From: Massilia soli | Lineage (GTDB): Bacteria > Pseudomonadota > Gammaproteobacteria > Burkholderiales > Burkholderiaceae_D | Assembly (NCBI RefSeq): GCF_016809835.1 | Contig: NZ_JAFBIL020000009.1 | Span: 62,001-126,000 of the forward strand | Direction of reading: 5' to 3' | DNA: 64,000 nucleotides | Shown here: piece by piece, positions 34,248 through 51,007 of the stretch | Layout: every line of letters starts with the position of its first letter | Position numbering within the stretch: the first letter of the stretch is position 1 | Program-made: the position numbers and the translations under genes | The notes under the pieces: generated by a model | What the model was told of the DNA's origin: nothing | Database searches by the model: none | The model's input: only the letters and a program-made list of their open reading frames with translations

Positions 34248-34422
34248 GACATTGTTTAGGTTTTGTACAGAAGCATCACTATAGTCCATTTGTCCGCCGC
34301 CTGCCTCGCGCCCGCATGGTCAGGTTGCGCTTGTCCCTAGTCAATGCACGAAATGCAAGATTCGGCAATGATACAAATGCCTGCGGTCACTGCGCGGGCG
34401 CCTTCCATTGCCGGGAGAAGCT

Positions 34423-35814
34423 GTGATACGGATCTTCAATCACTACGTTTCCAAGATGGCATTCATCCTGCTGTTCCTGGAGCTATTGATGTTGCTGGCG
34501 TCGGCCAGCGTGGCGTCAGCGTTATGGTTTTCCGATGGCCGCGGCCACTTCCGCGCCGACAACCTGTATTTGTCGTCGCTGACCTTTGCCCTGGTCATCA
34601 TCTTCAGCATGAGCGCGCTGGGCATGTACCAGCACAGTTCGCGCGAAGGGCTGCGCACCACCCTGATCCGCATCATGCCGTCGTTCGGGCTTGGCTTTGC
34701 GCTGCTGTCGGCACTGATCGCCGTGCGGCCCGACCTGTACTTCGGGCGCGGCATCAGCATCCTGATTTTCGCGATCGGCGCCACCGGCGTGGTGATCACG
34801 CGGCTGGTGGTGTTCAAATCGGCCGCCTCGGCGCTGCTGGAGGCACGCCTGCTGTTCGTCGGCGGCGGCCCGCTGGCGCATGAATGCATTGAGCTGGCCA
34901 CCAACAAATTCGGCTTCCACCAGTTTCACGTGATTGGCTGCGTGCCGGTCCACGGCGAAGAACACTGCGTGCCGGACTCGCTGCTGCTGCCGGCCGGCGA
35001 ATCGTTGCTGGCGATGGCGCGCAAATACGAAGCCAGCGAGATCGTCGTCACCGTCGCCAACCGGCGCAGCAGCGCCTTCCCGGTGCGCCAGCTGCTCGCA
35101 TGCGCGCTGGGCGGCGTGCGCGTGATCGACGCCGCCACCTTCTTCGAGCGCGAAGCGTGCCAGATCAGGCTCGATTCCCTCCAGCCGAGCTACTTGATTT
35201 TCGGCGGCGGGTTCGACCAGAGCTTCGTGCGCGCCGCCACCAAGCGCGCGTTCGACCTTGCCGCCAGCGGCCTGATCACCGCGCTGTCGCTGCCGGTGAT
35301 GCTCGCGACCGCCGCCGCGATCATGCTCGAAGACGGCGCTCCGGTGTTCTACCGCCAGGAGCGGGTAGGGCTCGACGGCCGGATATTCAGCGTGCTGAAA
35401 TTCCGCAGCATGCGCAAGGATGCGGAGCCGGACGGGAATCCGATCTGGGCGGCGCACGACGATCCGCGCATCACGAAAGTCGGGCGCATCATCCGCAAGC
35501 TGCGCATCGACGAGCTGCCGCAGATGTTCAACGTCTTCCGCGGCGAGATGAGCTTCGTCGGGCCGCGCCCGGAGCGCGACTTCTTCGTGCGCCAGCTGGA
35601 ACGCGACATTGCCTACTACGGCGTCAGGCACAGCATCAAGCCGGGCATCACCGGGCTGGCGCAGGTGCGCTACCAGTACGGCGCTTCGGTGGAAGACGCC
35701 ATCGCAAAGCTTCAGTACGACCTGTACTACGTGAAGAACAACAGCCTGTTCCTCGACCTGCTGATCCTGATCGATACCGTACAGGTGGTCCTGTTCGGCA
35801 AAGGCAGCCGCTAG
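34423..35814 (+). CDS. EPS-initiating sugar (polyprenyl-phosphate glycosyl) transferase, PEP-CTERM type
   Basis: A 463-residue membrane enzyme of the WcaJ/EpsB type that attaches the first sugar phosphate to undecaprenyl phosphate. The N-terminal half has four to five helices and a CoA-binding-like Rossmann domain (RLLFVGGGPLAHECIEL). The C-terminal catalytic domain has KRAFDLAASGL, FYRQERVG, FKFRSM-like VLKFRSMRKDA, DELPQMFNVFRGEMS and GPRPE (all conserved). The GTG at 34423 has GGGAGAAG upstream and is preferred over an earlier TTG. prsR follows after 33 bases on the same strand. Confidence 0.93.
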   Translation: MIRIFNHYVSKMAFILLFLELLMLLASASVASALWFSDGRGHFRADNLYLSSLTFALVIIFSMSALGMYQHSSREGLRTTLIRIMPSFGLGFALLSALIAVRPDLYFGRGISILIFAIGATGVVITRLVVFKSAASALLEARLLFVGGGPLAHECIELATNKFGFHQFHVIGCVPVHGEEHCVPDSLLLPAGESLLAMARKYEASEIVVTVANRRSSAFPVRQLLACALGGVRVIDAATFFEREACQIRLDSLQPSYLIFGGGFDQSFVRAATKRAFDLAASGLITALSLPVMLATAAAIMLEDGAPVFYRQERVGLDGRIFSVLKFRSMRKDAEPDGNPIWAAHDDPRITKVGRIIRKLRIDELPQMFNVFRGEMSFVGPRPERDFFVRQLERDIAYYGVRHSIKPGITGLAQVRYQYGASVEDAIAKLQYDLYYVKNNSLFLDLLILIDTVQVVLFGKGSR

Positions 35815-37815: not shown

Positions 37816-38616
37816 CTACCATCTGACGATCCAGTGCGCGGCGACCTGGGCCACCGCATCGCGCCATTCGCGGCTGGCGAACGTATGGTTGGCGAGCGGG
37901 ATCTCGACCCGCCTGCATTTGAGCTCGTGCTTGCCGATCAGCTGGTCGAACCGGCGCGCGCTATCGTCGGCCCCGCCGAGGATGACCAGCATCTGGCCGT
38001 CGAAGCAGGATAAGCCGGCCAGCACGCGCTGCGGCAGTGCTACCGTGTTGTCGGTGGCGGCCTCGCGCAGGTGCTGGCGCAGCGCCGCGGCGCTGGCGGC
38101 GAAGTCGACATTGCCGGTCGCGACTTTCTTCCAGAAACCGAGCTCGCCGAGCCGGCCAAGGTAGTACTGGCGTGGCGCCGGCCTGGCTTCGGGCTCGGGT
38201 TCATCGATGCGCGGGTTGAGCAAGATGACGCCGCGCACGCGCGCGTCGAGGTGCGCGTACAGCGCGGCGGCGCTGGCCGCCTCGCCCAGGCCCCAGAGGA
38301 CGACTTCCTTCATCTCGGGCATCTGCATGAAGAACTCGCTCATGGCGGCGCCGATGTCGTCGTCGAGGGTGTCGCAGCGGCGCGGCGCGCCTTCGCTGTC
38401 GCCGCAGCCGCGGTGGTCGAAGCGCATGACCGGGATGCCGCGCCCGGCCAGGGTACGCGACAGCAGCGCGAACTGGCGGTGGCCGCCGACCCGGTATTGG
38501 GCGGCGTCGGTGATGACCAGCAGGCCGCGGGCGATCGGGCGCTCGGGCACATCGATGATGCCGACCAGGCAGCTGCCGCCACAACAAAAGCGCAGGGCGC
38601 GCTGGTCGAATTTCAT
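37816..38616 (-). CDS. Exosortase A-associated hydrolase 1, nucleophile apparently lost
   Basis: A 266-residue alpha/beta hydrolase of the type called exosortase A system-associated hydrolase 1. It has FDHRGCGDSEG (about 87-97), the elbow region VVLWGLGEAASAA and the His segment ANHTFASREWRD near the end. From memory, relatives read GLCDGASAA or GLCDAASAA at the elbow, with Cys as probable nucleophile; here that position is Gly (GLGEAAS), so catalysis is doubtful. The frame is intact. The ATG at 38616 overlaps the upstream hydrolase 2 gene by four bases, so they are co-translated. Confidence 0.85.
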   Translation of the reverse strand: MKFDQRALRFCCGGSCLVGIIDVPERPIARGLLVITDAAQYRVGGHRQFALLSRTLAGRGIPVMRFDHRGCGDSEGAPRRCDTLDDDIGAAMSEFFMQMPEMKEVVLWGLGEAASAAALYAHLDARVRGVILLNPRIDEPEPEARPAPRQYYLGRLGELGFWKKVATGNVDFAASAAALRQHLREAATDNTVALPQRVLAGLSCFDGQMLVILGGADDSARRFDQLIGKHELKCRRVEIPLANHTFASREWRDAVAQVAAHWIVRW

Positions 38617-39458
38617 GGCTCGGCCCCGAATACGGCACTGGTGGCGTCGAGCAGCGCGGGACACTCGGCGTCGTCGATGGGGTTCCAGAACGGCACCCCG
38701 TCGACCGGATGGAAGTGGACGCTGGCGCCGCGCTCGCCCCAGCGCCGGGTCAGGCGCGCGGCGCTGGCGGCCAGGCGGGTCGGCGCCGGCGCGCCGGTGG
38801 CAAACCAGTGGATCGGGCAGGCCGGCACCGCCATCGCGGCGGCGTCGCAGGCGTCGATTGCCTGCGCCAGCTCGCGCGCCAGCGCATAGCCGCCGACCTC
38901 GATGCTGCCGTGCGCGGCCAGGTAGGCGCGCAGCGCGGCGGTGCTGCGCGGCGCTCCGGGCGGCGGATTGTCGCCCTGGGCGATCAGCTGCTCGCGCAGG
39001 AAATGGTTGACGCAGCTGCGGCCCTGCATGAAAGGCTGCCACAGGATGATGCCGTCGACCGGCGTGGTGCAGGCGAAGTCGAGGGCCAGCAGGCCGCCCA
39101 GGCGCAGGCCCCACAGCTGCACCGGGCCGGCGCTGCGCTGGCGCAGCCAGGACAGCGCCACGTCGAGGTCGCGTTTCCAGATGTCCCAGCGCGCCGCCGA
39201 GAAGTCGCCGCAGCTGTCGCCGCAGCCGAACAGGTCGATCTGGAACACCGCGTAACCCAGCGCGGCAAAGCGGCGCGCCTGCAGCAGCGCCATGCGGCGC
39301 GTGCGGTTGAGCTCTTCGGCGAACGGATGCACATACAGGATGGCGCCGCGTTCGCGGCGATTGGGATCGGGCGCGTGATACAGGCTGAATCGGGTGCCGG
39401 GCTCGGCATCGAAGAAGAACGCTTCCACGCGCGGGGTGGATACCAGCGGGGCGTTCAT
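38613..39458 (-). CDS. Exosortase A-associated hydrolase 2
   Basis: A 281-residue alpha/beta hydrolase-like protein: HPFAEELNRTRRMALLQARRFA near residue 42, LFGCGDSCGDF and the elbow LWGLRLGGLLALDFA, in which Arg sits where a Ser nucleophile would be, as in other hydrolase 2 proteins of these loci. Its reaction is unknown. The ATG at 39458 has GAGG upstream; an extended start reaches 39581 but the added residues are not protein-like. It is the first of two coupled minus-strand genes, divergent from the acyl-CoA ligase. Confidence 0.83.
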   Translation of the reverse strand: MNAPLVSTPRVEAFFFDAEPGTRFSLYHAPDPNRRERGAILYVHPFAEELNRTRRMALLQARRFAALGYAVFQIDLFGCGDSCGDFSAARWDIWKRDLDVALSWLRQRSAGPVQLWGLRLGGLLALDFACTTPVDGIILWQPFMQGRSCVNHFLREQLIAQGDNPPPGAPRSTAALRAYLAAHGSIEVGGYALARELAQAIDACDAAAMAVPACPIHWFATGAPAPTRLAASAARLTRRWGERGASVHFHPVDGVPFWNPIDDAECPALLDATSAVFGAEP

Positions 39459-39674: not shown

Positions 39675-41252
39675 ATGGCTGAACTGATACATGAACTGAT
39701 CGGCGAGAGCGCGGACAAGCGGCCGCTCGCCGAAGCATTGATTGACGGCGCGGTGCGCCTGACCTACCGCCAGCTGGCCGAGCGCGTCGAGGCGGCGGCG
39801 CATGGCTTTGCTGCCCTTGGGCTGGAACGCTTCGACCGCGTCGCGATCTTCATCGAGAAGCGCCACGAGGCGGTGGTGGCGATGTTCGGGGCGGCCGCGG
39901 CAGGGCTGGTGCTGGTGCCGGTCAACCCGCTGCTCAAGCCGGCGCAGGTGGCGCACCTGCTGCGCGACAGTAACGCGCGCCTGCTGGTGACCAGCCAGGC
40001 GCGGCTCGACGGGCTGGCCGGCGCAGGCGGCGCGCTGCCGGACCTGCGCCACGTCGTCGTCGTCGATGGCGACGCTGCGCCGATCGACGGGCTGACCGTC
40101 ACCGCCTGGCGCGACTGCCTGATCCACGGCCATCGCGGCGCGCTGCACCGGACCATCGAGACCGACATGGCCGCCCTGATGTACACCTCGGGCAGCAGCG
40201 GTCCGCCCAAGGGCGTGGTGCTGTCGCACCGTAACCTGGTGGCCGGCGCGTACAGTGTGGCGCGCTACCTCGGCAACAGTCCGGCCGACCGCATCCTGGC
40301 GGTGCTCCCGCTCAGCTTCGACTACGGCATGAGCCAGCTGACCACGGCATTCGCCAGCGGTGCGGCGGTGGTGTTGATGAACCATGTGCTCACGCGCGAC
40401 ATCCCGGAGATGATCGACCGCGAGCGCATCACCGGGCTGGCGGCGGTGCCGACCTTGTGGATCCAGCTGGCCAATCTCGACTGGCGCGGGCGCCACCCGC
40501 TGCGCTACATCACCAGTTCGGGCGGCTGCATGCCGCGGCCCACGCTGGCGACGCTGCGTGAAGCCTTGCCGCGCACCCGCATCTACCTGATGTACGGCCT
40601 CACCGAAGCGTTCCGCTCCACCTACCTGGCCCCGGAACAGGTCGACAGCCGGCCCGACTCGATCGGCAAGGCGATACCGAACGCCGAAGTGCTGGTGCTC
40701 GATCCTGAAGGCCGGGCCTGCAAGCCGGGCGAACCGGGTGAACTGGTGCATCGCGGGCCGCTGGTGTCGCTCGGCTACTGGAACGACCCGGTGCAGACCG
40801 CGGCGCGCTTTCGTCCGCTGCCGCCTTGCCCGGGCCAGCCGCGCGCCGACGCCGTGGTGTGGTCCGGCGACACGGTGCGCATGGACGACGAGGGCTACCT
40901 CTACTTCATCTGCCGCACCGACGACATGATCAAGACGTCCGGCTACCGCGTCAGCCCGACCGAGATCGAGGACGTGCTGTATGCGACCGGCATGGTCGGC
41001 GAAGCGGTCGCGCTGGGCGTGGCCCATCCGGTGCTGGGGCAGGCGATCGCGGTGGTGGCCACCCCGAATGCCGAAGGCGTGCCCGATTCGGCCGCGCTGC
41101 TGGCGGCCTGCAAGCTGCGGCTGCCGCCGTACATGCAGCCGGCGCTGGTCGAGCTGCGCCCCGGTCCGTTGCCGCGCAACCTCAACGGCAAGGTCGACCG
41201 GCGCATGCTGGCGAACGAACTGGCGCACCTGTTTGCCGAGGTTGTTCCGTGA
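39675..41252 (+). CDS. AMP-forming acyl-CoA ligase, exosortase A-associated
   Basis: A 525-residue adenylating enzyme with YTSGSSGPPKGVVLSH (P-loop, about 170-185), YGLTEAFRS (A5 motif), YFICRTDDMIKTSGYRVSP (hinge and A8) and the closing PLPRNLNGKVDRR with the catalytic Lys. It is the acyl-CoA ligase usually found next to exosortase A genes together with an acyl carrier protein and a decarboxylase; neither partner is in the window. An AGGAG site lies upstream of the ATG. The methyltransferase gene overlaps its stop (GTGA). Confidence 0.9.
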   Translation: MAELIHELIGESADKRPLAEALIDGAVRLTYRQLAERVEAAAHGFAALGLERFDRVAIFIEKRHEAVVAMFGAAAAGLVLVPVNPLLKPAQVAHLLRDSNARLLVTSQARLDGLAGAGGALPDLRHVVVVDGDAAPIDGLTVTAWRDCLIHGHRGALHRTIETDMAALMYTSGSSGPPKGVVLSHRNLVAGAYSVARYLGNSPADRILAVLPLSFDYGMSQLTTAFASGAAVVLMNHVLTRDIPEMIDRERITGLAAVPTLWIQLANLDWRGRHPLRYITSSGGCMPRPTLATLREALPRTRIYLMYGLTEAFRSTYLAPEQVDSRPDSIGKAIPNAEVLVLDPEGRACKPGEPGELVHRGPLVSLGYWNDPVQTAARFRPLPPCPGQPRADAVVWSGDTVRMDDEGYLYFICRTDDMIKTSGYRVSPTEIEDVLYATGMVGEAVALGVAHPVLGQAIAVVATPNAEGVPDSAALLAACKLRLPPYMQPALVELRPGPLPRNLNGKVDRRMLANELAHLFAEVVP

Positions 41253-42049
41253 GCGCGGAGCCGGGCTGGCGCAGCCGCCGCGACGACGGCGCGCCGTATC
41301 TGTTCGAGGAGCGCGGCGCGCGCGAGGCTGCGCAGCAGCGCCTGGCCGTGATCGCCGCGACGCTGGCGCGCAAGACCGGGCGCCACGGCGCGCCGATGCA
41401 GGTGGCCGACGTCGGCTGCGGCGCCGGCGTCCAATGCCGGCTGTGGGCCGCGCGCGGCCACCAGGTCTATGGCGCCGATATCAACAAGGCGCTGATCGCG
41501 CTGGCGCGCAAGCGGGCGCGCGAGGCCGGGCTCGAGATCAGCTACGAAGTCGCCTCGGCCACCGCGTTGCCCTGGCCGGACCGCTCGATGGATCTGTGCA
41601 TCGTCCCCGAATTGATCGAGCACGTGGCCGACTGGCGCGGCTGCCTGGCCGAATTTGTGCGCATCCTGAAACCGGGCGGCGCGCTCTACCTGAGCACCAG
41701 CAACATGCTGTGCCCGGTGCAGGACGAGTTCGACCTGCCGCTGTACTCGTGGTATCCGGGGTTTGTGAAGCGCCATTACGAAGACCTGGCCTGCACCAGC
41801 CGTCCGGACCTCGCCTGCTACGCGCTGCAGCCGGCCATCAACTGGTTCACCTGGTACGGGCTGCGCAACCACCTGGCGCGCCACGGCTTGCGCAGCATCG
41901 ACCGCTTCGACATGCTCGAAGCGAGCGCCCAGGGCAGCCCTGCGGCGAGGGCAGCGCTGCGGCTGGTGCTGGCGTTGCCGCCGCTGCGCTTCTGCGCGCA
42001 TGTGGCCACTCCCAGCACCACGCTGATGGCGATCAAGCCGGCGCCCTGA
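41249..42049 (+). CDS. Class I SAM-dependent methyltransferase
   Basis: A 266-residue protein with the Rossmann SAM motif VADVGCGAGVQC (about 51-62), an acidic ribose-binding residue in VYGADINKALI and DLCIVPELIEHV as motif post-II. The length and the extended C-terminal half (YSWYPGFVKRHYEDL) suggest a methyltransferase of small molecules or sugar. Start at GTG 41249 overlaps the ligase stop, so it is coupled to acyl-CoA ligase translation. It ends in a 17-base overlap with the convergent deacetylase gene. Confidence 0.82.
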   Translation: MSAEPGWRSRRDDGAPYLFEERGAREAAQQRLAVIAATLARKTGRHGAPMQVADVGCGAGVQCRLWAARGHQVYGADINKALIALARKRAREAGLEISYEVASATALPWPDRSMDLCIVPELIEHVADWRGCLAEFVRILKPGGALYLSTSNMLCPVQDEFDLPLYSWYPGFVKRHYEDLACTSRPDLACYALQPAINWFTWYGLRNHLARHGLRSIDRFDMLEASAQGSPAARAALRLVLALPPLRFCAHVATPSTTLMAIKPAP

Positions 42050-42929
42050 CCAGGTTGCACGCCATGCGCAGCAGCAAGCCACGGGCGCCACGGTCGGGCG
42101 GCGTCAGGCGCGGCAGCAGCATCGGGTCGGTATCGTGGCGCGCCGCGCCGCCCGCGCTGGTGACGGCCGCGTCGAAGCCCTGGCTGCGCAGCATGTCGAC
42201 GTGGCGCAGCTCGAAGTCCTGTCCGGGCTTGCCGCTCGGGTAGGCAAACAGGCGCACCGGCGCCTGGATAATCTCCTGCAGCCTGGCGCGTCCGTTGGCG
42301 ATCTCGGCGCGCGCATCGGCGTTGGAAATCGAGGTGAGCACCGGGTGGCTGACGGTCTGGGCGCCGATTTCCATGCCGGAGCGGTGCAGGGCCAGCACCT
42401 CGTCGGAGGTCATCATGGTCGGCACGAAGCTGCGCGCCATGCTGCGGATGCGTTCAAGGCGTTCACCGTGCGGCAGCCGGCCCAGCGTGTCGACCAGCAT
42501 GTCGATCACCGCGCGCCGCCGCACCGGACAGCCCAGGTCATAAGTTGCGAAGCCGCTCGACGTCAGGTTCAGGCGGTCGCCGGTGGCGCTGCGCACCACA
42601 TCGATCACCGCGTCCTTCCACATGCAGCCGCCGTCGAGAAAGCCGCTGGCGACGAAAAACGTGGCCGGCACCCGGTGACGCTGCAGGATCGGCAGCGCCA
42701 CCGAAGCATTGTCGGCGTAGCCGTTCTCGAACGCGATGCAGGCGGCGCGCGGCGGCAGCGAGCGATCGCGCAGGCGGCGCACCGCGTCACCGAGCGGCAT
42801 CAGGCGGAACCAGCGCGCGAGCACCTTGAGCTGCTGTTCGAAATGCCGGGCGTCGAGCTGCTCCGGGAACAGCGGGTCGGGCCTGGCGAGGACGCGGCGG
42901 TAAATCAGGATCGAAAGCGGTACTTGCAT
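42033..42929 (-). CDS. Polysaccharide deacetylase-fold protein with degenerate active site
   Basis: A 298-residue NodB-homology (CE4) protein. The fold is clear: AFENGYADN near 66-74, LPILQRHRVPATFFVASGFLDGG and a VRLFAYPSG motif 3. But the catalytic/metal motif TFDDGY is AFENGY (E68 for the catalytic Asp, N69 for the metal Asp), and motif 2 is GAQTVSHP, so Q191 replaces the first of the two metal His residues; H195 remains. Metal-dependent deacetylation is therefore unlikely in its normal form. The frame is intact and no frameshift is seen. It stands alone, divergent from a glycosyltransferase. Confidence 0.85.
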   Translation of the reverse strand: MQVPLSILIYRRVLARPDPLFPEQLDARHFEQQLKVLARWFRLMPLGDAVRRLRDRSLPPRAACIAFENGYADNASVALPILQRHRVPATFFVASGFLDGGCMWKDAVIDVVRSATGDRLNLTSSGFATYDLGCPVRRRAVIDMLVDTLGRLPHGERLERIRSMARSFVPTMMTSDEVLALHRSGMEIGAQTVSHPVLTSISNADARAEIANGRARLQEIIQAPVRLFAYPSGKPGQDFELRHVDMLRSQGFDAAVTSAGGAARHDTDPMLLPRLTPPDRGARGLLLRMACNLVRAPA

Positions 42930-43109: not shown

Positions 43110-44234
43110 ATGCGTATCGGCATTTTGTCGTACCCGATGCTGTTCCAGCGCGAGGGCAGCTTGCAGATCCAGATCCGCGAGACCATCCGTTCGCTGAACC
43201 GGCTGCACGGCATCGACGGCGAGGCGCTCTCGGTGGAGCTGGTCGATCCGTGCCGCGGCAGGTTCGATGCGTATGACCTGATCCACGTCTTTGCCGCCGT
43301 CCACGGCAACCACCGGATCGTCGAAGTGGCGACCGAGCTTGGCGTGCCAGTGGTGCTGTCGCCGCTCATTTCGCCGGGCTGGAACCGCTCCAGCGGCACC
43401 CGCGCCCGCGTCGCCGACCGCCTGCTCGGCAACCTCACCGCGTGGAATGTCGAAACCAGCTACGCGCAAACGCGCCGCGCGCTGCAGGTCGCCACCCTGA
43501 TCGTCGCGCTGGGCGAAGCGGAAAAGCGCGCCATTGGCGAGGCCTTCCTGGTGCCGGCGGCGCGCGTGCGGGTGTTCCCGAACGGGATATCGCCCCAGTT
43601 CTTCAATGCCGACGGCGCATACTTCCGCGCCCGCACCGGCATCGAGGGGCCGTTCGTGCTGATGGTCGGCGCGATCGCGCCGCACAAGGACCAGCTGGGC
43701 ATGGCGCACGCGCTGTCGGAGATGGCGCTGCCGTTCGTTCTGGTAGGCGAAGCCCAGGAACGCGACCAGGATTACCTGGCGCAGGTTCGCCAGGTGCGCG
43801 GCGTGACCTGCCTGGGCAAGCTGCGCCATGACGATCAGCTGCTGGCCAGCGCGTTCGCGGCGGCGGCGGTGTTTGCGCTGCCGGGCCAGACCGAGGTCCA
43901 GCCGATGCCCGCGCTGGAAGCTCTGGCCGCCGGCACGCCGGTGGTGAACAGTTCGGGCAGCGACCTGACCATCGCCAACGCCGGCTTCGCGATCCGCACC
44001 GTCGCGCCCGGGGACACGAGCGGCATCAAGCGCGCGGTGCTCGGCCTGATCGAGGAACCGCCGAAGCGCGCGGCGGTGCGCTCGCTGGTCAGCGAGCTGA
44101 CCTGGGACCGGATCGCCGAACGCATCGCGCGCTGCTATGTCGAGGTGGTCAGGGCCAGGCCGCGCGGTGCGCCAGGCGCCGGCCTGGTTCAGCGCGAGAC
44201 GCCCTCGAGCAGCCGCCTGTACACCGGCCCGTAA
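43110..44234 (+). CDS. Glycosyltransferase (GT4-like)
   Basis: A 374-residue GT-B glycosyltransferase. The donor-site motif EVQPMPALE (E-x7-E) near residues 265-273 and the PNGISPQFF and VGAIAPHKDQLG segments are typical of GT4. The N-terminal acceptor domain starts RIGILSYPMLFQREGSLQIQ. It probably adds a sugar to the EPS repeat unit on the lipid carrier. The ATG at 43110 has GGAG six bases upstream. Its 3' end overlaps that of the convergent glycosyltransferase by 46 bases. Confidence 0.85.
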   Translation: MRIGILSYPMLFQREGSLQIQIRETIRSLNRLHGIDGEALSVELVDPCRGRFDAYDLIHVFAAVHGNHRIVEVATELGVPVVLSPLISPGWNRSSGTRARVADRLLGNLTAWNVETSYAQTRRALQVATLIVALGEAEKRAIGEAFLVPAARVRVFPNGISPQFFNADGAYFRARTGIEGPFVLMVGAIAPHKDQLGMAHALSEMALPFVLVGEAQERDQDYLAQVRQVRGVTCLGKLRHDDQLLASAFAAAAVFALPGQTEVQPMPALEALAAGTPVVNSSGSDLTIANAGFAIRTVAPGDTSGIKRAVLGLIEEPPKRAAVRSLVSELTWDRIAERIARCYVEVVRARPRGAPGAGLVQRETPSSSRLYTGP

Positions 44235-45289
44235 CTGCGCGCGGCCGCTTCCCAGCTACGCTCGACTGCCGCGAACTGGCGCGCGCGTTCGCGCAGCGGC
44301 TGCATGCAAGCGGGCTCGGACAGCAGCGCATCGACAGCGTCCACCAGGCCATCGACGCTTCCTGCTTCGAACAGCACGCCGTTGCGTCCGTGGTCGATCA
44401 GTTCGCGATGCGGCGCGATGTCCGAGGCCAGCACCAGCGTCCCATGCGCCATCGCTTCGAGCGGCTTGCGCGCCGCCGCCATCGAGCGGGTCGGCGGCGC
44501 GGCGAACAGCACCAGGTCCGCCGCCGCGTAGATGGCGGCCAGGTCGTCCGGTTCGAGCTGGCCCGGGAATAGTACCGCTGCGCCGTGGCCGGCGGCGAAG
44601 TTCAGCAGGTGTCCCTGGGCCGGTCCAGCGCCCGCCACCACCAGCCGCAACGCCGGGTGCGCGCGCAGCAGCGGCGCCATCGCCGCGGTCACCAATTGCT
44701 CGTCGAGCGGCCCGACGCAGGCGATCAGCGGTCCGCCGCGGCCGGGCAGGTAGTCCGGCCAGGCGCTCCCTGGCGGGCGCGGCAGGTCGGTCGCAGGGGC
44801 GATGGTGTCGACGCGCTGCGGCGCGACCCCGCGCGCCAGCAGGGCGGCGCGCAGCGCCAGGCTGTCGGTGACCACCGCCGCGGCGAGGCGGGCGACGTAG
44901 CCGTCCAGGATGGTCCTGCTGGCGCCGTGGATCTCAGCCAGCACCGGCACATCGCTGCGCCAGCCGGCCCACAGGGCCGCGAGCGCATTGATCGCCGGCG
45001 GGTGCGCATGCAGGATGTCGGGGCGCGACAGCCGGATCGCGTGGCGCAGGCGGCGGACGATGCGCCGCACCAGCAGTATCGGCGGCAGCCAGTCCGGCCC
45101 CGGCGCGGTACGGATGAAGTGCCAGCCGTCGCGGTTGCGGTCCTCGGTCTCGACCTTGCCCTGGGCCGGGCCGGTCAGCTGGATCGTGTGCCATCCGAGC
45201 GCACGCTGCTGCCGCAGCAGCGACAGCGTGCGATGCGAATAGGCGCTGTGGACCGGGACCGAATGATCGAGCACGTGCAGGATGCGCAT
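44189..45289 (-). CDS. Exosortase A-associated glycosyltransferase, Daro_2409 type
   Basis: A 366-residue GT4 protein opening with MRILHVLDHSVPVHSAYSHR, which matches the PEP-CTERM/exosortase A-associated Daro_2409 family (MRILHVLDHSxPxHSGYTxR). The C-terminal nucleotide-sugar site reads RSMAAARKPLEAMAHG, so the first Glu of E-x7-E is Met, while the second Glu (KPLEAM) is kept. It is the last gene of a minus-strand unit with another glycosyltransferase, a deacetylase-fold protein, a tyrosine kinase and a chain-length regulator. Confidence 0.88.
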   Translation of the reverse strand: MRILHVLDHSVPVHSAYSHRTLSLLRQQRALGWHTIQLTGPAQGKVETEDRNRDGWHFIRTAPGPDWLPPILLVRRIVRRLRHAIRLSRPDILHAHPPAINALAALWAGWRSDVPVLAEIHGASRTILDGYVARLAAAVVTDSLALRAALLARGVAPQRVDTIAPATDLPRPPGSAWPDYLPGRGGPLIACVGPLDEQLVTAAMAPLLRAHPALRLVVAGAGPAQGHLLNFAAGHGAAVLFPGQLEPDDLAAIYAAADLVLFAAPPTRSMAAARKPLEAMAHGTLVLASDIAPHRELIDHGRNGVLFEAGSVDGLVDAVDALLSEPACMQPLRERARQFAAVERSWEAAARSYGPVYRRLLEGVSR

Positions 45290-45302: not shown

Positions 45303-46487
45303 TCAGGCGCGGTTGGCGAGGGCGTGCGGGCAGGGCGGCGGCTGGGTCAGCGAATCGTAGACCGCCATATAGCCTTGCGCCATCGCGGGCAGGCTGTGCT
45401 GGGCGATGACCTGGCTGCGCGCGCGCATGCCGTGGCGCGCGCCCATCTCGGGAATCCGGCAGTAATCGGCGATCGCGGCGGCCATCAGGTCGGGCGACTG
45501 GGGCGGCACCAGTATGCCGGTAAAGCCGGGGCGTACCAGTTCGGTGTTGCCGCCGACCGCGGTGGCGACGACCGGCAGGCCGGTGGCCATGGCCTCGAGG
45601 ATCGTGTTGGAGCTGCCTTCGGCCAGCGACGGCAGCACGAACAGGTCCATCGCCCGCATCAGCTGCGCGATATCGCCGCGCTCGCCGGGCAGCCAGGCCC
45701 GGTGCGAGGCGCCGGCGCGGGTCAGCATGTCCATGCATTCGGCGCGCGCGGGACCATCGCCGACGATCAGCAGGCGCAGGCGCTGGTGGGCCGGGTGCGG
45801 CGAGGCGATCAGGCGCAGGAACGCGTCGACCAGCGTCACGTGGTTCTTGACGTCGACCATGCGCCCGACACTGCCGATGACGAAAGCGTTCTCCTGCATG
45901 AAGCCGGCCGGGCCGATGGCCGCGGGCGGTCCCAGGCGCGGATGGAACTGGATGCTGTCGACGCCATTGGCGATCTGCGAGACGCGCTCCGGTTCGGCGC
46001 CGACGCTGTCGATCAGCCAGTGTTCGAGATCGGCGCTGACGGCGATGAAATGGCCGATCAGCGGCCGCAGAACCCGGCGCAGCAGCTGGTACTTGAGTCG
46101 CTTGCCGTACAGGTCGAACATGTCGCGTCCATGCTCGCCGTGCACGCGCAGCTTGACGCCTGCCAGCGCGGCGACCAGCTGGCCCTCGAGGCCGCACAGG
46201 TTGCGGGTGTGGATCAGGTCCGGCTGCAGCGCGCGCAGCGCCTTGAACATGCGCAGGTAGTGGCCGAAGTCCTTGCCTTCGCGCTTGTTCAGGCTGATGA
46301 TCTCGACGCCGCGCGTGTGCAGCTGCGACTCGAAGTCCGAATAGTCCTTCAGGCAGACGATCGCATGGCGGTAGCGGTCCGCCGGCATGTGCTTGATCAG
46401 GTTGATGAGGCCATTTTCGAATCCGCCAGCATCGAGCTGGTGAATCAGGTGAACTACCAGCCTTGGCTGTTCAAAAGACACTGTCAT
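45303..46487 (-). CDS. XrtA-associated glycosyltransferase, TIGR03088 type (GT4)
   Basis: A 394-residue glycosyltransferase with the opening VVHLIHQLDAGGFENGLINLI, typical of the PEP-CTERM/XrtA glycosyltransferase group (also called stp2). The acceptor segment HTRNLCGLEGQ and the donor motif EGSSNTILEAMATG (complete E-x7-E) are present. It is expected to transfer a sugar in EPS repeat synthesis. It overlaps the upstream deacetylase-fold gene by four bases and is followed by another glycosyltransferase after 13 bases. Confidence 0.9.
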   Translation of the reverse strand: MTVSFEQPRLVVHLIHQLDAGGFENGLINLIKHMPADRYRHAIVCLKDYSDFESQLHTRGVEIISLNKREGKDFGHYLRMFKALRALQPDLIHTRNLCGLEGQLVAALAGVKLRVHGEHGRDMFDLYGKRLKYQLLRRVLRPLIGHFIAVSADLEHWLIDSVGAEPERVSQIANGVDSIQFHPRLGPPAAIGPAGFMQENAFVIGSVGRMVDVKNHVTLVDAFLRLIASPHPAHQRLRLLIVGDGPARAECMDMLTRAGASHRAWLPGERGDIAQLMRAMDLFVLPSLAEGSSNTILEAMATGLPVVATAVGGNTELVRPGFTGILVPPQSPDLMAAAIADYCRIPEMGARHGMRARSQVIAQHSLPAMAQGYMAVYDSLTQPPPCPHALANRA

Positions 46488-47428
46488 GATCGGCTCCGCA
46501 CGGTTTGGACGGCCGCTTCACTACGCGTGAAGCCGTGCCAGCGCGGCCGCGGCTGGCTTCGGAAAACAGGTGGGGCAGCGCCAGGCAGCAACGGGAACAC
46601 GTCGTCGATGCTGCCCCAGCGAAATTGGCCGGCCAGCGCGAGCAGGCGCGCTTCGGTGCGGCCGAGGTTGGCGTAATGGCCGAGCCGCGCCGCCAGTGGC
46701 ATGCCGGGAATGCGCGGCTGGCCGGGATCGAGTTCCCATGCGCTGAAGCCGAACACGGCGGGCTGGCCCTCGGTGCGGTTCACGTGGCGCAGCAGTGCGC
46801 GCGAGAGCGCATAAGGCAGCAGGCGGAATCCGCTGCCGCCGCCGGCGGGAAGGTTGCAACCGAATACGCGCGCGGTCGACAGCGGCAGCTCGAGGATGCC
46901 GGATGGGCCGGCCGGGAAACAGGCGAATCGCGGCGCGTCGGCGGGCCGCCGGCGCAGCAGCGGATAGCTGCTGGAACTGTAGCGGTAGCCGCTGTGGTAG
47001 AGCGTGTCGAGCGCCCAGCGATGTTGCGGGCCGATCGAGCAGGCTGGCGCGCGGTAGCCAAGGACTGCGGCGCCGCACAGGTCTTCCAGCACGCCTTTGC
47101 TGCGCAGGATGTCGCGGCGGAACTGCACGCGCGTCTGGCTCGACGCCTTGTCGTTCGCATAGCCGCGGCTGGCGATTTCGTGGCCGGCCGCGCCGATCGC
47201 CCGCACCATCGCCGGATGGCGGCGCGCGATCCAGCCGAGGATGAAAAAGGTGGCGCGCACCTGGTGCTGGTCGAGCAGGGCCAGCACGGTGTCGATGTTG
47301 CGTTCGATCCGGCTCGGCATGCCAGGCCAGGCGCCGTGCGGCGCGAGCCCAGCGACGGCGCCGGCGTGGAAGTAGTCCTCGACGTCGACCGTCATCGCAT
47401 TGCGGATGCTGTCAGTCGTAGTAACCAT
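46484..47428 (-). CDS. XrtA-type polysaccharide deacetylase-fold protein (DUF3473), metal His residues lost
   Basis: A 314-residue NodB-fold protein of the XrtA/PEP-CTERM deacetylase type with C-terminal DUF3473. NAMTVDVEDYF, ATFFILGWIARRHP, VLGYRAPACSIG and LPAGGGSGFRLLPYALSR are conserved. Relatives have ASHGYxH and FHPWE; here these are ASRGYAN and FSAWE, so both metal His positions (bases 47165-47167 and 47153-47155) are Arg and Asn and the later His is Ser (46742-46744). Asp residues of VDVED remain. Catalytic loss is likely. The ATG at 47428 lies inside the preceding kinase gene, with GGGGG upstream. Confidence 0.87.
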   Translation of the reverse strand: MVTTTDSIRNAMTVDVEDYFHAGAVAGLAPHGAWPGMPSRIERNIDTVLALLDQHQVRATFFILGWIARRHPAMVRAIGAAGHEIASRGYANDKASSQTRVQFRRDILRSKGVLEDLCGAAVLGYRAPACSIGPQHRWALDTLYHSGYRYSSSSYPLLRRRPADAPRFACFPAGPSGILELPLSTARVFGCNLPAGGGSGFRLLPYALSRALLRHVNRTEGQPAVFGFSAWELDPGQPRIPGMPLAARLGHYANLGRTEARLLALAGQFRWGSIDDVFPLLPGAAPPVFRSQPRPRWHGFTRSEAAVQTVRSRS

Positions 47429-48206
47429 AGTAGTCACCCCCGGGGAAGGACCGCGCCTTGTTGCAGATAAGGCTGATGTGCGGGCAGTGGTCGAGCCGGC
47501 GCAGGGCCTCCTTGACGGTGCCCTGGGTGGTCGCTTCGGCCTCGATGACCATCACCACCTGCCCCATCTGCGCTGCCAGCACGCTGGCCTCGGTGGTAAG
47601 GAGCAGCGGCGGCGAGTCGAAGATGACGATCCGGTCGGGGTAGCGGTTGCTGATTTCGACCAGCAGCGCGCTCATGGTCTGGCTGGCCAGCAGCTCGGTC
47701 GCATGCTTGTTGTTGCGGCCTGCCGGCAGCAGGCTGAGGGTGTCGATATTGGTCTTCAGGATGACGTCGGCCACGCCCAGTTTCTCGCTCAGCAGGATAT
47801 CCATCAAGCCCGGCGCCGCCCCCAGTCCCAGCACCTTGAGCACCGAGGGGCGGGCCACGTCGGCGTCCACCAGCAGCACGGTGTGGTCCTTTTCCATGGC
47901 GATGCTCATGGCCAGGTTGATCGCGCAATAAGTCTTGCCTTCGCCCGGCAGCGCGCTGGTGACGACGATCAGGTTGCGGTTGGCGGTTCCGCTGGCGGCG
48001 TGCAGCGCATTGCGCAGCAGCGGGCGCTTGATGATGCGGAAGTCCTCGGCGGCGCTGGTGCGGCCGCCATCATGCGTCACCATGCCCATCTGGTGCAGGC
48101 GCGCCAGGTTGATGTCGACGTAGCGGCGCGGATCGTGGCCGTGCTCCGGCTCGGCCAACAGCGCGCCGCGTTCGTGTTCATGCTCGTGCGTGTCTGGAGT
48201 GTGCAT
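47412..48206 (-). CDS. XrtA-associated tyrosine autokinase (BY-kinase)
   Basis: A 264-residue cytoplasmic BY-kinase-like ATPase that regulates EPS polymerisation with the chain-length protein. Walker A is ALPGEGKTY, Walker A' is LLVDADVARP and Walker B is VIFDSPPLL, all complete. The C-terminus ends in a small Tyr cluster (YYGYYD), the likely autophosphorylation site, and the N-terminus is His/Glu-rich (HTPDTHEHEHERG). It lies 24 bases after the chain-length gene and overlaps the deacetylase-fold gene by 17 bases. It lacks the transmembrane activator domain, which is supplied by the separate Wzz-like protein. Confidence 0.9.
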   Translation of the reverse strand: MHTPDTHEHEHERGALLAEPEHGHDPRRYVDINLARLHQMGMVTHDGGRTSAAEDFRIIKRPLLRNALHAASGTANRNLIVVTSALPGEGKTYCAINLAMSIAMEKDHTVLLVDADVARPSVLKVLGLGAAPGLMDILLSEKLGVADVILKTNIDTLSLLPAGRNNKHATELLASQTMSALLVEISNRYPDRIVIFDSPPLLLTTEASVLAAQMGQVVMVIEAEATTQGTVKEALRRLDHCPHISLICNKARSFPGGDYYGYYD

Positions 48207-48230: not shown

Positions 48231-49757
48231 CTATTTCAGGAGAGCGGAGGCGATCATGGCTCCGTACATCGCCGCCAGCCCGGCAATCGCGGTGGCGAAC
48301 AGGTACTGGCCGCGGCGCCGCTTGATCGTTTCGGCCTCGGTCCAGTTCATCGACACCGTACCCAGCACCGGCAGCCCGGTGATCTCGCGCATGACGCCAG
48401 GGCCGAGGAAGGCCGGGCGGCTCTGGCTGATCAGGAGCGCCACGCCGGGGCCGGCGACCAGCGCCGCCAGGAAGGCGATGCTGTAGAACAGCAGGCGGTT
48501 CGGGCCGATGGGGGCGATCGGCATGGTGGGCGGGTCGATGATCTTGAAGGACATCATCTCGGTCGTCGATGACAAATCGCCCGACAGCTTGGCCGCTTCG
48601 CGCCGCCCGATCAGCTTTTCATAATTGTCCTTGTTGATCTCGTAGTCGCGGTTCAGCTGCGCCAGCTGCGATTCGACTTCCGGCACCGCATTGCTCTGCG
48701 CGAGCAGGCGGGCGTGGCGCACCGTGTATTCGTTGACGCGCGCAGTCATCGCCGCCACCCGCGCGTCGGCTTCGGTCAGCGCGACCTTCAGTTGCTGCAG
48801 CATGGGGCTGTAGTTCCTGCCCGCGTCGCCATCGCTCATCTTGAGCTTGTTGTCTTCGACCTTGCGCGCTTCGAGCTGGGCCAGCAAGCGGCGCGCCGAC
48901 AGGATGTCCGGATGCTGCTCGGTGTACTGCAGGCGCAGCGCATCGAGGCTCTTGTTGATGGCCGCGATGCGGGTGTCGATTTCAGGATTGGGCAGCGCGG
49001 CCGGACGCTGCTCGATGCTCAGCAACAGCGCGTCGCCCGTGACCTGGGCCTTGATGGCGGCGCGGGCCTGTTCGGCTTCGAGCAGTTCCAGCCTGGCCGC
49101 GCTCAGGTGATCGGCGGCGATCGCCAGCTGGGCGCCGTAGTCGACGCCCTGGCGCGGCAGCAGGGTGCTGTTGCGCAGCTTGAATTCCTTGACCATGTTC
49201 TCGGCGGCGATCAGGCGGTCTTCATAGTTCTTGATTTGCTCGTCGATGAACTGGACCGCCTTTTGCGAGTCGCCGCGCTTGCCCTTGAAGCTGCCTTCGA
49301 CGAAAATCGTCAGCAGCGACTGCACCACGTCGCGCACCAGCTTCGGATTGTTGTCCTGATAGCTGATCGCATAGATGTCGTAGGCCGCCGTCCCGGTGAT
49401 CTTAATCTTCGACATCAGCTGCTCGACCTGCTTCTCGTGCTCGCGCGCGGTAGTGGCGCGCACGTCCAGGTCGACCATGCGCATGACCCGTTCGACATTT
49501 GGGCGGCTCAGCAGCGTGCGGCTCATGATGGCCACCTGCTGCTCGACGTTCGGCACGCTGGTCATGTTCGACAGCAGCGGCTTGAGGATGGTCTGGGTAT
49601 CGACAAACACGCGCGCGGTAGTCTGGTATTCGTCGGGCATCGAGTAGGCCTTGATCCAGCCGCCCATGGCGACCAGCCAGGCGACCGCGACGGCATGCCA
49701 GCGATATTTCCAGATGCCCCGAATGCTCGACAGCAGCTGGCTGATGAAGTCCTCCAT
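48231..49757 (-). CDS. XrtA-type chain-length determinant (Wzz/PCP) protein
   Basis: A 508-residue polysaccharide co-polymerase. Residues 1-90 hold a Wzz domain with an N-terminal helix (AVAVAWLVAMGGWIKAYS), a long coiled-coil periplasmic region (about 120-390, rich in QKAVQFIDEQIKNYEDRL-type heptads) and a C-terminal helix pair near 410-430 and at the very end. It sets EPS chain length and activates the tyrosine kinase. The ATG at 49757 is chosen: GGAGG lies eight bases upstream and it starts with the family-typical short helix; a longer start at 49841 overlaps a TATAAT box. It heads the five-gene minus-strand unit. Confidence 0.9.
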   Translation of the reverse strand: MEDFISQLLSSIRGIWKYRWHAVAVAWLVAMGGWIKAYSMPDEYQTTARVFVDTQTILKPLLSNMTSVPNVEQQVAIMSRTLLSRPNVERVMRMVDLDVRATTAREHEKQVEQLMSKIKITGTAAYDIYAISYQDNNPKLVRDVVQSLLTIFVEGSFKGKRGDSQKAVQFIDEQIKNYEDRLIAAENMVKEFKLRNSTLLPRQGVDYGAQLAIAADHLSAARLELLEAEQARAAIKAQVTGDALLLSIEQRPAALPNPEIDTRIAAINKSLDALRLQYTEQHPDILSARRLLAQLEARKVEDNKLKMSDGDAGRNYSPMLQQLKVALTEADARVAAMTARVNEYTVRHARLLAQSNAVPEVESQLAQLNRDYEINKDNYEKLIGRREAAKLSGDLSSTTEMMSFKIIDPPTMPIAPIGPNRLLFYSIAFLAALVAGPGVALLISQSRPAFLGPGVMREITGLPVLGTVSMNWTEAETIKRRRGQYLFATAIAGLAAMYGAMIASALLK

Positions 49758-49817
49758 TCTGTCGACCTCCGTAGTCGTGCGACCAGAAGCGCATGCCTCG
49801 CTCCGCACATGTGTCCG

Positions 49818-49823
49818 ATTATA
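49818..49823 (-). promoter_or_regulatory. Putative -10 box for the chain-length gene unit
   Basis: A perfect TATAAT (minus strand) lies 61 bases upstream of the chosen start of the chain-length gene. No convincing -35 is seen at the usual distance, so this is a weak promoter call. Confidence 0.35.
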
Positions 49824-49891
49824 TGGCGTGTGGGCAACCAAAATCGGCTACCTCTGCCGCCGTTGATTCGCATCAAAAATGTCGAGACGGG

Positions 49892-50056: not shown

Positions 50057-51007
50057 TTATTCCACTGCCTGCTTGCGGCGGCGGCCGAACGCCGTCATTC
50101 CCAGCAAGCCGATACCGAAGATCGCCAGGGTGGCCGGCTCCGGTACGGCCTGCGTGTCCTGCAGGGCGTTGGCCAGCGTGTTGTGCTGGATCGTGATCTG
50201 GTAGGTGCTGGCGATGCTCAGCATGCCGGTGGTCGCGCTGAACGAACCGGTACCAGGGTTGTAGGTCGTGGTGCCGGGGAAGCCGTCGGTACGGCTGACA
50301 TTGCTAAACGCGTTGAGCTCGTTTGGAGCGTAGGCGAACACCGTCATGCCGGTGGTCATGTCAACAATGTTGATGCTCCACGATAGCCGCGCATTGGCGT
50401 TGGTGGTGGGGGAACCATCGGCCGACACGTACGCCTGGGTGAAGGGGGTGGCGTTGAATGCGATCGTCATCGAGTCGGCGGCGCCGAGGGTGAAGCTGAA
50501 GGTGGTAGAAGTTCCGACATCGGAGTTGCCCGATGCGACACCGTTGACCGCCAGCGACGCATCGGCGCGGGTTGCTGCCGTTGCGCCGGCAGGCATGGCG
50601 CCGATGGTAATCGAACTGCCGCTCAGGTTCTGGTCGGCGTAGCCGAAGGTGCCGGGCACCGGGGGCGCGCTGCTGAACGGGGTGAAATTGTTTTCCGGCA
50701 GGGCTGGATTCGGATTGCCCACCGTCTGGTGCGCGACGTCCGGGTTGACGCCGCTCAAAATGCCGAACGACTGTGCGCCGTTGGCAAACACGCCATTGAG
50801 CGAAGCGGTTGCGTGTGCATCGTTGGTTCCGGTCAGCATGCCAAAGTCGGTCACGCTGTAAGGCGTACCGGACGAATGCAGCAAGCGGAAGTTATCGATG
50901 ACGAGGATGGACTGGGCAAACGCATCGGCTCGCGCGCTGCCCATCCCACCGATGGCGATGCTGGCGGCCATGGCCGTCAGCAGCATGGTTTTGCGTACGA
51001 TCTTCAT
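50057..51007 (-). CDS. PEP-CTERM sorting-domain protein (exosortase substrate)
   Basis: A 316-residue secreted protein. The signal peptide (1-27, ending GSARA) is followed by a strand-rich, Thr/Ser/Asn-rich body without Cys. The C-terminus has the sorting signal VPEPATLAIFGIGLLGMTAF followed by GRRRKQAVE: PEP motif, hydrophobic helix and basic tail. An exosortase would cut near the PEP motif and the protein would be exported with EPS. An AGGAG site is seven bases before the ATG. A sigma-54 promoter lies upstream, and a terminator is downstream. No exosortase gene is in the window. Confidence 0.95.
   Translation of the reverse strand: MKIVRKTMLLTAMAASIAIGGMGSARADAFAQSILVIDNFRLLHSSGTPYSVTDFGMLTGTNDAHATASLNGVFANGAQSFGILSGVNPDVAHQTVGNPNPALPENNFTPFSSAPPVPGTFGYADQNLSGSSITIGAMPAGATAATRADASLAVNGVASGNSDVGTSTTFSFTLGAADSMTIAFNATPFTQAYVSADGSPTTNANARLSWSINIVDMTTGMTVFAYAPNELNAFSNVSRTDGFPGTTTYNPGTGSFSATTGMLSIASTYQITIQHNTLANALQDTQAVPEPATLAIFGIGLLGMTAFGRRRKQAVE

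Follow-up and report, generated by a model that had tools for sequence, protein, structure and literature searches.

Why would one EPS locus keep two deacetylase-fold genes that have both lost catalytic residues, and are these genes relics or proteins with another role? The question is raised by Massilia soli (G000), in a window of 64,000 nucleotides (C39:62001-126000). The genome comprises 39 contigs and 5.0 Mb and was scored as 100% complete and 0.01% contaminated. We refer to the XrtA-type gene as B2, to its neighbour with the second deacetylase fold as B1, and to the surrounding genes as locus B.

Locus B and its paralog in the same genome

XrtA-type genes of locus B match TIGR03088, 03018, 03007, 03098, 03100, 03101 and 03013, together with PrsR (02915), PrsT (02917) and a PEP-CTERM protein. 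The genes most relevant to the argument are the following:

34408-35814, plus strand: priming sugar transferase (TIGR03013), motifs present (profile, motifs)
37816-38619, minus strand: hydrolase 1 (TIGR03100), presumed nucleophile Cys112 replaced by Gly at codon 38284-38286 (profile, alignment)
39675-41252, plus strand: AMP-forming acyl-CoA ligase (TIGR03098), motifs present in Massilia soli (profile, motifs)
42033-42929, minus strand: B1, the other deacetylase-fold gene (PF01522), in which the motif-5 His position is close to the N terminus (profile, alignment)
45303-46487, minus strand: GT4 glycosyltransferase (TIGR03088), its start overlapping the B2 stop by 4 nt (profile, junction)
46484-47437, minus strand: B2, homolog of XrtA-type deacetylases (TIGR03006) that lacks the metal and acid histidines (open reading frame, profile, fold model)
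47412-48206, minus strand: XrtA-associated tyrosine autokinase (TIGR03018), Walker motifs present, overlapping the B2 start (profile, motifs)
48231-49841, minus strand: XrtA-type chain length determinant (TIGR03007) (profile)

No exosortase match was found within the 64-kb window, and two are located elsewhere in the genome, on C11 and C22. The C11 exosortase is surrounded by a paralogous locus A with homologs of 12 of the 25 window genes tested (35-70% identity), and this locus holds intact copies of both deacetylases. Its TIGR03006 paralog (G000:C11:530188-531000, 463.6 bits) belongs to the same family as B2 by curated score and is ~53% identical to it. Locus B is a second, duplicated, exosortase-less XrtA-type EPS locus. 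It also encodes an EDSAP-1 family PEP-CTERM protein (50057-51007, minus strand), whose processing would need to come from elsewhere in the genome.

The active site of B2 and the order of its losses

The frame of B2 is open from an ATG at 47428 (or a possible GTG at 47437) to 46484 and encodes 314 aa from the ATG, with motifs that translate as VDVEDYF, ASRGYAND, GYRAPACSI and FGFSAWELD. Translation and codons agree base for base with the residues named in the original prediction (Arg, Asn and Ser at the catalytic histidines, the Asp pair of VDVED kept). The decisive positions, all on the minus strand, are:

47375-47386, minus strand: motif 1 (MT1), DVED with both Asp retained, likewise in 126 of 126 other rows (codons, alignment)
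47165-47167, minus strand: motif 2 (MT2), first metal His replaced by Arg, R88 of the 314-aa form (codons, alignment)
47153-47155, minus strand: MT2, second metal His replaced by Asn, N92 (codons, alignment)
46940-46954, minus strand: RRRPA (residues 159-163) where the canonical HDHYG loop sits (low model confidence)
46733-46747, minus strand: motif 5 (MT5), FHPWE changed to FSAWE, acid His replaced by Ser (S229, codon 46742-46744), common to M. agrisoli (codons, alignment)

Of the features of active CE4 enzymes, B2 thus has the MT1 Asp pair and lacks both the MT2 His pair and the MT5 acid His; the MT3 Arg is retained in the alignment. Its family membership is clear from the whole-protein profile score (320.3 bits against TIGR03006, curated cut-off 276.2), and both the NodB domain PF01522 (64.6 bits) and DUF3473 (PF11959, 112.8 bits) were found. 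With this score and all three catalytic histidines gone, the view of B2 as an XrtA-type protein with a dismantled active site stands. The AlphaFold2 model has a mean pLDDT of 84.7 and a pTM of 0.85, with low confidence at residues 158-163 and in the tail. Foldseek returned NodB-type deacetylases as top matches of this model, the best being 3rxz (E 1.8e-12, with modest TM values of 0.52-0.60 for its chains), and a sequence search against solved structures placed the Arg and Asn of B2 opposite the two histidines of HxxxH in 3rxz and 5o6y. Rank 5 among the Foldseek matches was the CE4 pseudoenzyme BA3943 (PDB 7bkf, 6hm9, 6hpa), a natural protein with the fold of B2 that is titled a pseudoenzyme in the PDB but shares only 11-12% identity with B2 in the aligned part.

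In CE4 deacetylases, zinc is held by a His-His-Asp site, with an Asp serving as base and a His as acid, and natural members without the MT2 His are described as inactive (passages of PMC5855634). An experimental parallel is PelADA of Bacillus cereus, an EPS deacetylase like the family of B2, whose MT2 metal-His and MT5 acid-His mutants remained stable but had no detectable activity, whereas four Asp mutants aggregated and were degraded (passages of PMC13254593). This matches the pattern of B2, where Asp is retained and His lost, although the PelADA variants were made in the laboratory, from an enzyme on which the biofilm of its host depends. Since all three catalytic histidines are gone and the PelADA mutants are inactive, B2 is very probably inactive as a deacetylase, being predicted by this analogy to be unable to bind the metal (Arg and Asn) and to lack the general acid (Ser). 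Natural CE4-fold proteins described as inactive and without metal also include BA0150 (4M1B) and ECU11_0510 (2VYO), which differ in belonging to other subfamilies and in being described as single cases (passages of PMC5855634 and PMC10967932).

Comparison with other TIGR03006 members sets B2 apart. Both MT2 histidines are present in 126 of 126 other TIGR03006-type rows (123 distinct; the loci L031, L035 and L036, without alignment, lie outside these rows), B2 alone being without HxxxH, and ordinary family variation of this motif is thereby ruled out. The motif-5 His is present in 121 of the 126; two fragments are gapped there, two rows represent one M. agrisoli gene (Ser) and one is from M. 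eurypsychrophila (Glu). The canonical members examined thus have HxxxH, plus FHPWE where the row is complete, whereas B2 is without both of these motifs and without the HDHYG loop.

The nearest named relative, M. agrisoli MAHUQ-52 (L073, G001), has a syntenic locus and a B2 that is 79% identical and reads ASHGYTH and FSAWE, with both metal histidines present and the motif-5 His gone. A look for the same changes in close relatives, suggested along with the original prediction, was therefore successful for FSAWE, while the loss of the metal histidines occurs only in Massilia soli among the sampled genomes. We extended the comparison to 74 columns conserved to at least 95% in 120 distinct canonical relatives, a set from which L015, L016, L073 and L075, the two fragments L030 and L034, and any identical rows had been removed. 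These relatives depart from the consensus at a median of 0 and a maximum of 3 columns, compared with 12 in B2, 11 in M. agrisoli and 20 in M. eurypsychrophila. Ten departures are common to B2 and M. agrisoli, the HDHYG loop and FHPWE among them; between these two, only H88R and H92N are specific to B2 and only I132V to M. agrisoli. In the window lineage, 62 of the 64 otherwise retained columns are unchanged and the changed two are H88 and H92, an outcome with a chance of 1 in 2016 (calculated post hoc and by hand). As FSAWE and the loop change are common to M. agrisoli and H88R/H92N are not, motif 5 and the loop went first and the metal site last. From the alignment, the inactivation of B2 is stepwise, with the metal ligands lost later and, among the sampled genomes, only in Massilia soli. 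In a tree calculated without the catalytic columns, by a quick method that warns of long branches meeting, the B2 copies of Massilia soli, M. agrisoli and M. eurypsychrophila group together in a single clade (SH-aLRT 98).

Retention and loss of B2 among relatives

Locus B was found in 18 genomes (16 of 17 sampled members of the genus and two of another genus code), and B2 is present in three of them (TIGR03006, E 1e-30): Massilia soli, M. agrisoli and M. eurypsychrophila JCM 30074 (G060, L075). In the other 15 no copy was found by the same search, three of the 18 assemblies being 81-91% complete (G014 81%, G120 82%, G011 91%). Ten of the 15 genomes without B2 have 58-326 nt between the glycosyltransferase gene and a full kinase gene. 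In G009 (L183-L184), this gap measures 125 nt: one frame still carries the first 18 codons of B2 together with residues 292-303, a second frame carries its last 16 codons, and searching the gap by itself gave matches at E of roughly 1e-5 to 1e-6. A trace of the B2 start also remains in G005, in part overlapping the kinase end. Among the matches listed for 392 family genomes, there was no further B2 copy above 58% identity; a second TIGR03006-type match, in G102, stands outside the present comparisons.

Where it is kept, B2 has been under constraint. Between Massilia soli and M. agrisoli its dN/dS (NG86) is 0.255, indicating purifying selection on the fold, a value that spans the whole time since the split and not only the time after the last lesions. 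For the same pair, other tested locus genes range from 0.05 to 0.20 (the methyltransferase row of the comparison is void), except for the glycosyltransferase gene at 44189-45289, and nadB has 0.033; the locus-A copies show 0.155 (B2 paralog) and 0.104 (B1 paralog). That glycosyltransferase gene (minus strand; TIGR04063, 250 bits, under the cut-off) has a dN/dS of 0.33, more than any other locus gene with a valid estimate. The dN of B2 is ~4x that of the locus-A copy (0.128 vs 0.034; dS 0.50 vs 0.22), and relative-rate counts for the window lineage with five outgroups gave no significant acceleration (13 v 10, 12 v 10, 15 v 15, 12 v 11, 11 v 8). As judged from substitutions, B2 is relaxed, yet not neutral.

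We favour the reading, at a probability of about two in three, that locus B shed its own tailoring chemistry, with B2 a dead and dispensable relic and B1 by its looks a retained pseudoenzyme. B2 would then be a former XrtA-type polysaccharide deacetylase that retains the fold and no longer deacetylates, probably at a late stage of its loss. What speaks against a relic is the constraint itself, as the dN/dS, the lack of acceleration and the 62 unchanged columns would also fit a non-catalytic role. Accordingly, a lesser but real possibility is that B2 is a true pseudoenzyme that holds the locus-B assembly complex together or binds glycan without cutting it, selection maintaining the fold alone. 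A dN/dS well below 1, the restriction of change among the 64 still-retained columns to the metal histidines, the non-significant rate tests, the TIGR03006 cut-off still being reached and the confident fold model all agree with such a role, but it has to contend with the absence of matches in 15 of 18 locus-B genomes, the deletion scar in the near relative G009 and the fourfold dN relative to the locus-A copy in the same genome pair.

Alternatively, the frame of B2 might stay open only because it is part of an overlapping, translationally coupled operon (ATGA with the glycosyltransferase), the protein itself doing nothing. The stop-start overlap of 4 nt with the glycosyltransferase and the 17-nt overlap with the kinase, with junction letters identical in M. 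agrisoli, are what coupling would predict. We nevertheless consider it unlikely, given that M. eurypsychrophila has a spacer before the glycosyltransferase, that B2 is deleted in G009, where the remnant frame from its ATG no longer ends at ATGA, and that coupling leaves the nonsynonymous constraint on B2 unexplained. That B2 continues to deacetylate by means of another metal site or mechanism is very improbable: the MT1 Asp pair and MT3 Arg are present, but three catalytic histidines are gone, and both the PelADA single mutants in MT2 or MT5 (passages of PMC13254593) and the natural CE4 proteins without the MT2 His (passages of PMC5855634) argue against activity. A sequencing or assembly error at the B2 codons can practically be dismissed, as three separate codons are changed in an open frame, FSAWE recurs in the M. 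agrisoli assembly and the genome is complete and practically uncontaminated.

B1, the other tailoring enzymes and locus A

The second deacetylase gene shows a broader pattern. The motif-5 His position of B1 lies near the N terminus (H11), as described for the NodB2 topology (passages of PMC10967932). Massilia soli carries H11R, D68E, D69N and H191Q, and of the five catalytic residues only H195 remains. At these five positions, HDDHH is found in all 33 A-type copies (A-type sets consisting of copies from locus-A genomes plus lone copies from other genera) vs 2 of 18 locus-B copies (G007 and G011; one duplicate locus, L180, was left out). The 16 altered copies read RENQH, RDNQH, QDNHH, QDHHH, QDHHD, HDGHQ, RDGQQ, REDCE, HVDHH or HDDQQ, with no single lesion common to all of them. 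In the 17 genomes with both copies, the locus-A copy (A1) is intact in all 17 and B1 in one, G011, which has locus A and yet keeps the complete set of B1 catalytic residues, next to the changes T192P and P196A. B1 copies form one clade (support 100/100) whose base is poorly resolved. Without regain, the best tree requires three losses (binary minimum of changes, two), and 300 of 1000 bootstrap trees gave two (10 trees), three (169), four (100) or five (21). On these trees, the catalytic losses of B1 appear recurrent, having occurred some three times or more. Permutation, with relatedness ignored, yielded no more than p = 0.037 for a concentration of B1 losses in the five catalytic columns, so that the contrast between A and B copies is the stronger evidence.

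The B1 gene is present in all 18 locus-B genomes, with no internal stop in any of the 18 copies. Its dN/dS is 0.105 between Massilia soli and M. agrisoli (NG86) and 0.10-0.30 in six genome pairs, the range for A1 being 0.10-0.23 in those of the pairs that offered both genes, and it reaches 0.41 against the more distant G060. Since B1 has ~2x the dN/dS of A1 in three of the six pairs, part of its persistence may be slow decay. By these measures B1 looks mainly like a retained pseudoenzyme with some relaxation. The proposal that the deacetylases may have become structural suits B1 (frame open in 18 of 18, dN/dS about 0.1-0.3) better than B2, which was not found in 15 of the 18. The parallel losses that had been seen in the two genes are real in that both active sites are altered, for B1 across the 18 genomes with the A-type control intact, but they were not simultaneous: the metal-His loss of B2 is confined to Massilia soli and its motif-5 loss is earlier, while the B1 losses are older and recurrent. 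One joint event that killed both genes is ruled out by these differences in age and place.

Other locus-B enzymes were altered as well. In hydrolase 1, the A-type motif WGLCD[GA]A is found in 26 of 26 copies. The locus-B copies (counted without the fragment L263 and the duplicate L264) have Gly or Asp in place of this Cys, which we take to be the nucleophile from its position, in 15 of 18 and retain it in G007, G060 and G120; a conserved His is gone in 8 of 18. The C-terminal Lys of the ligase, presumably catalytic, is gone in locus B of G003, G008 and G010, and PKG is changed to PTG in G002 and G006. No ligase match was obtained in locus B of G005, G012, G014, G015, G060 and G120, both flanking genes lying within the stretches searched. 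Whole-locus decay does not apply to most genomes and applies partly to some. Of 15 locus-B regions with an autokinase match, 14 have the Walker motifs (G008, one of these, differs at one position of the third motif compared) and the 15th, in G014, holds a remnant, and the motifs of the priming transferase look intact in 16 of 16 regions with a match (no match in locus B of G011 and G120). Tailoring enzymes of locus B would thus have lost catalysis in most sampled relatives, with the priming transferase, glycosyltransferase and autokinase retained in most. Against a general retention of assembly functions, no match to a full autokinase and chain-length gene was found in locus B of G007, G012 and G120, in addition to the kinase remnant of G014.

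Redundancy with locus A might explain this selective loss. Tailoring may be supplied in trans by locus A, or the locus-B product may no longer need it, and in either case selection on catalysis in locus B would be lost; B1 and hydrolase 1 might then persist for a non-catalytic role. G007 (L186, L234, L235) had no TIGR03006 or TIGR03007 match at E 1e-30, and its one exosortase resembles that of C22 by profile range; it thus has no recognisable locus A. It is the sole sampled genome of this kind, and its B1, hydrolase 1 and ligase residues are intact. In the best tree its B1 is the earliest of all B1 copies to split off, with weak support. This pattern fits a locus A that permits the loss of tailoring in B, as seen in one fragmented genome of 350 contigs and with G011 as a counterexample. 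Also against redundancy, G060 and G120 have locus A and nonetheless keep the hydrolase 1 Cys. The suggestion that the EPS may remain acetylated does not follow from the dead deacetylases, because locus A of the same genome encodes intact ones able to act in trans, and acetylation of the locus-B product is hence not deducible from B1 and B2. No signal peptide was apparent by eye in either deacetylase type.

A bolder and rather doubtful extension would see locus B as a genus-wide cassette of pseudoenzymes. Here the deacetylases, hydrolase 1 and, in some lineages, the ligase would have been silenced repeatedly after duplication and retained because they bind substrate or partners and scaffold or regulate the intact locus-A enzymes, the two distant loci forming one split EPS system. 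In the open-licence PMC literature, our searches led to single inactive CE4 proteins and to no account of deacetylases that were inactivated within an exosortase-type locus. Single inactive deacetylases of this fold are thus known, and, as far as this literature goes, the locus-wide, recurrent case is new. Annotation by family assignment alone (TIGR03006 above the cut-off, PF01522) would credit with deacetylation a locus whose own deacetylases look dead. Moreover, with the same few enzymes repeatedly dead and intact paralogs in the same genomes, these relatives offer a natural replicated experiment on why bacteria retain dead enzymes.
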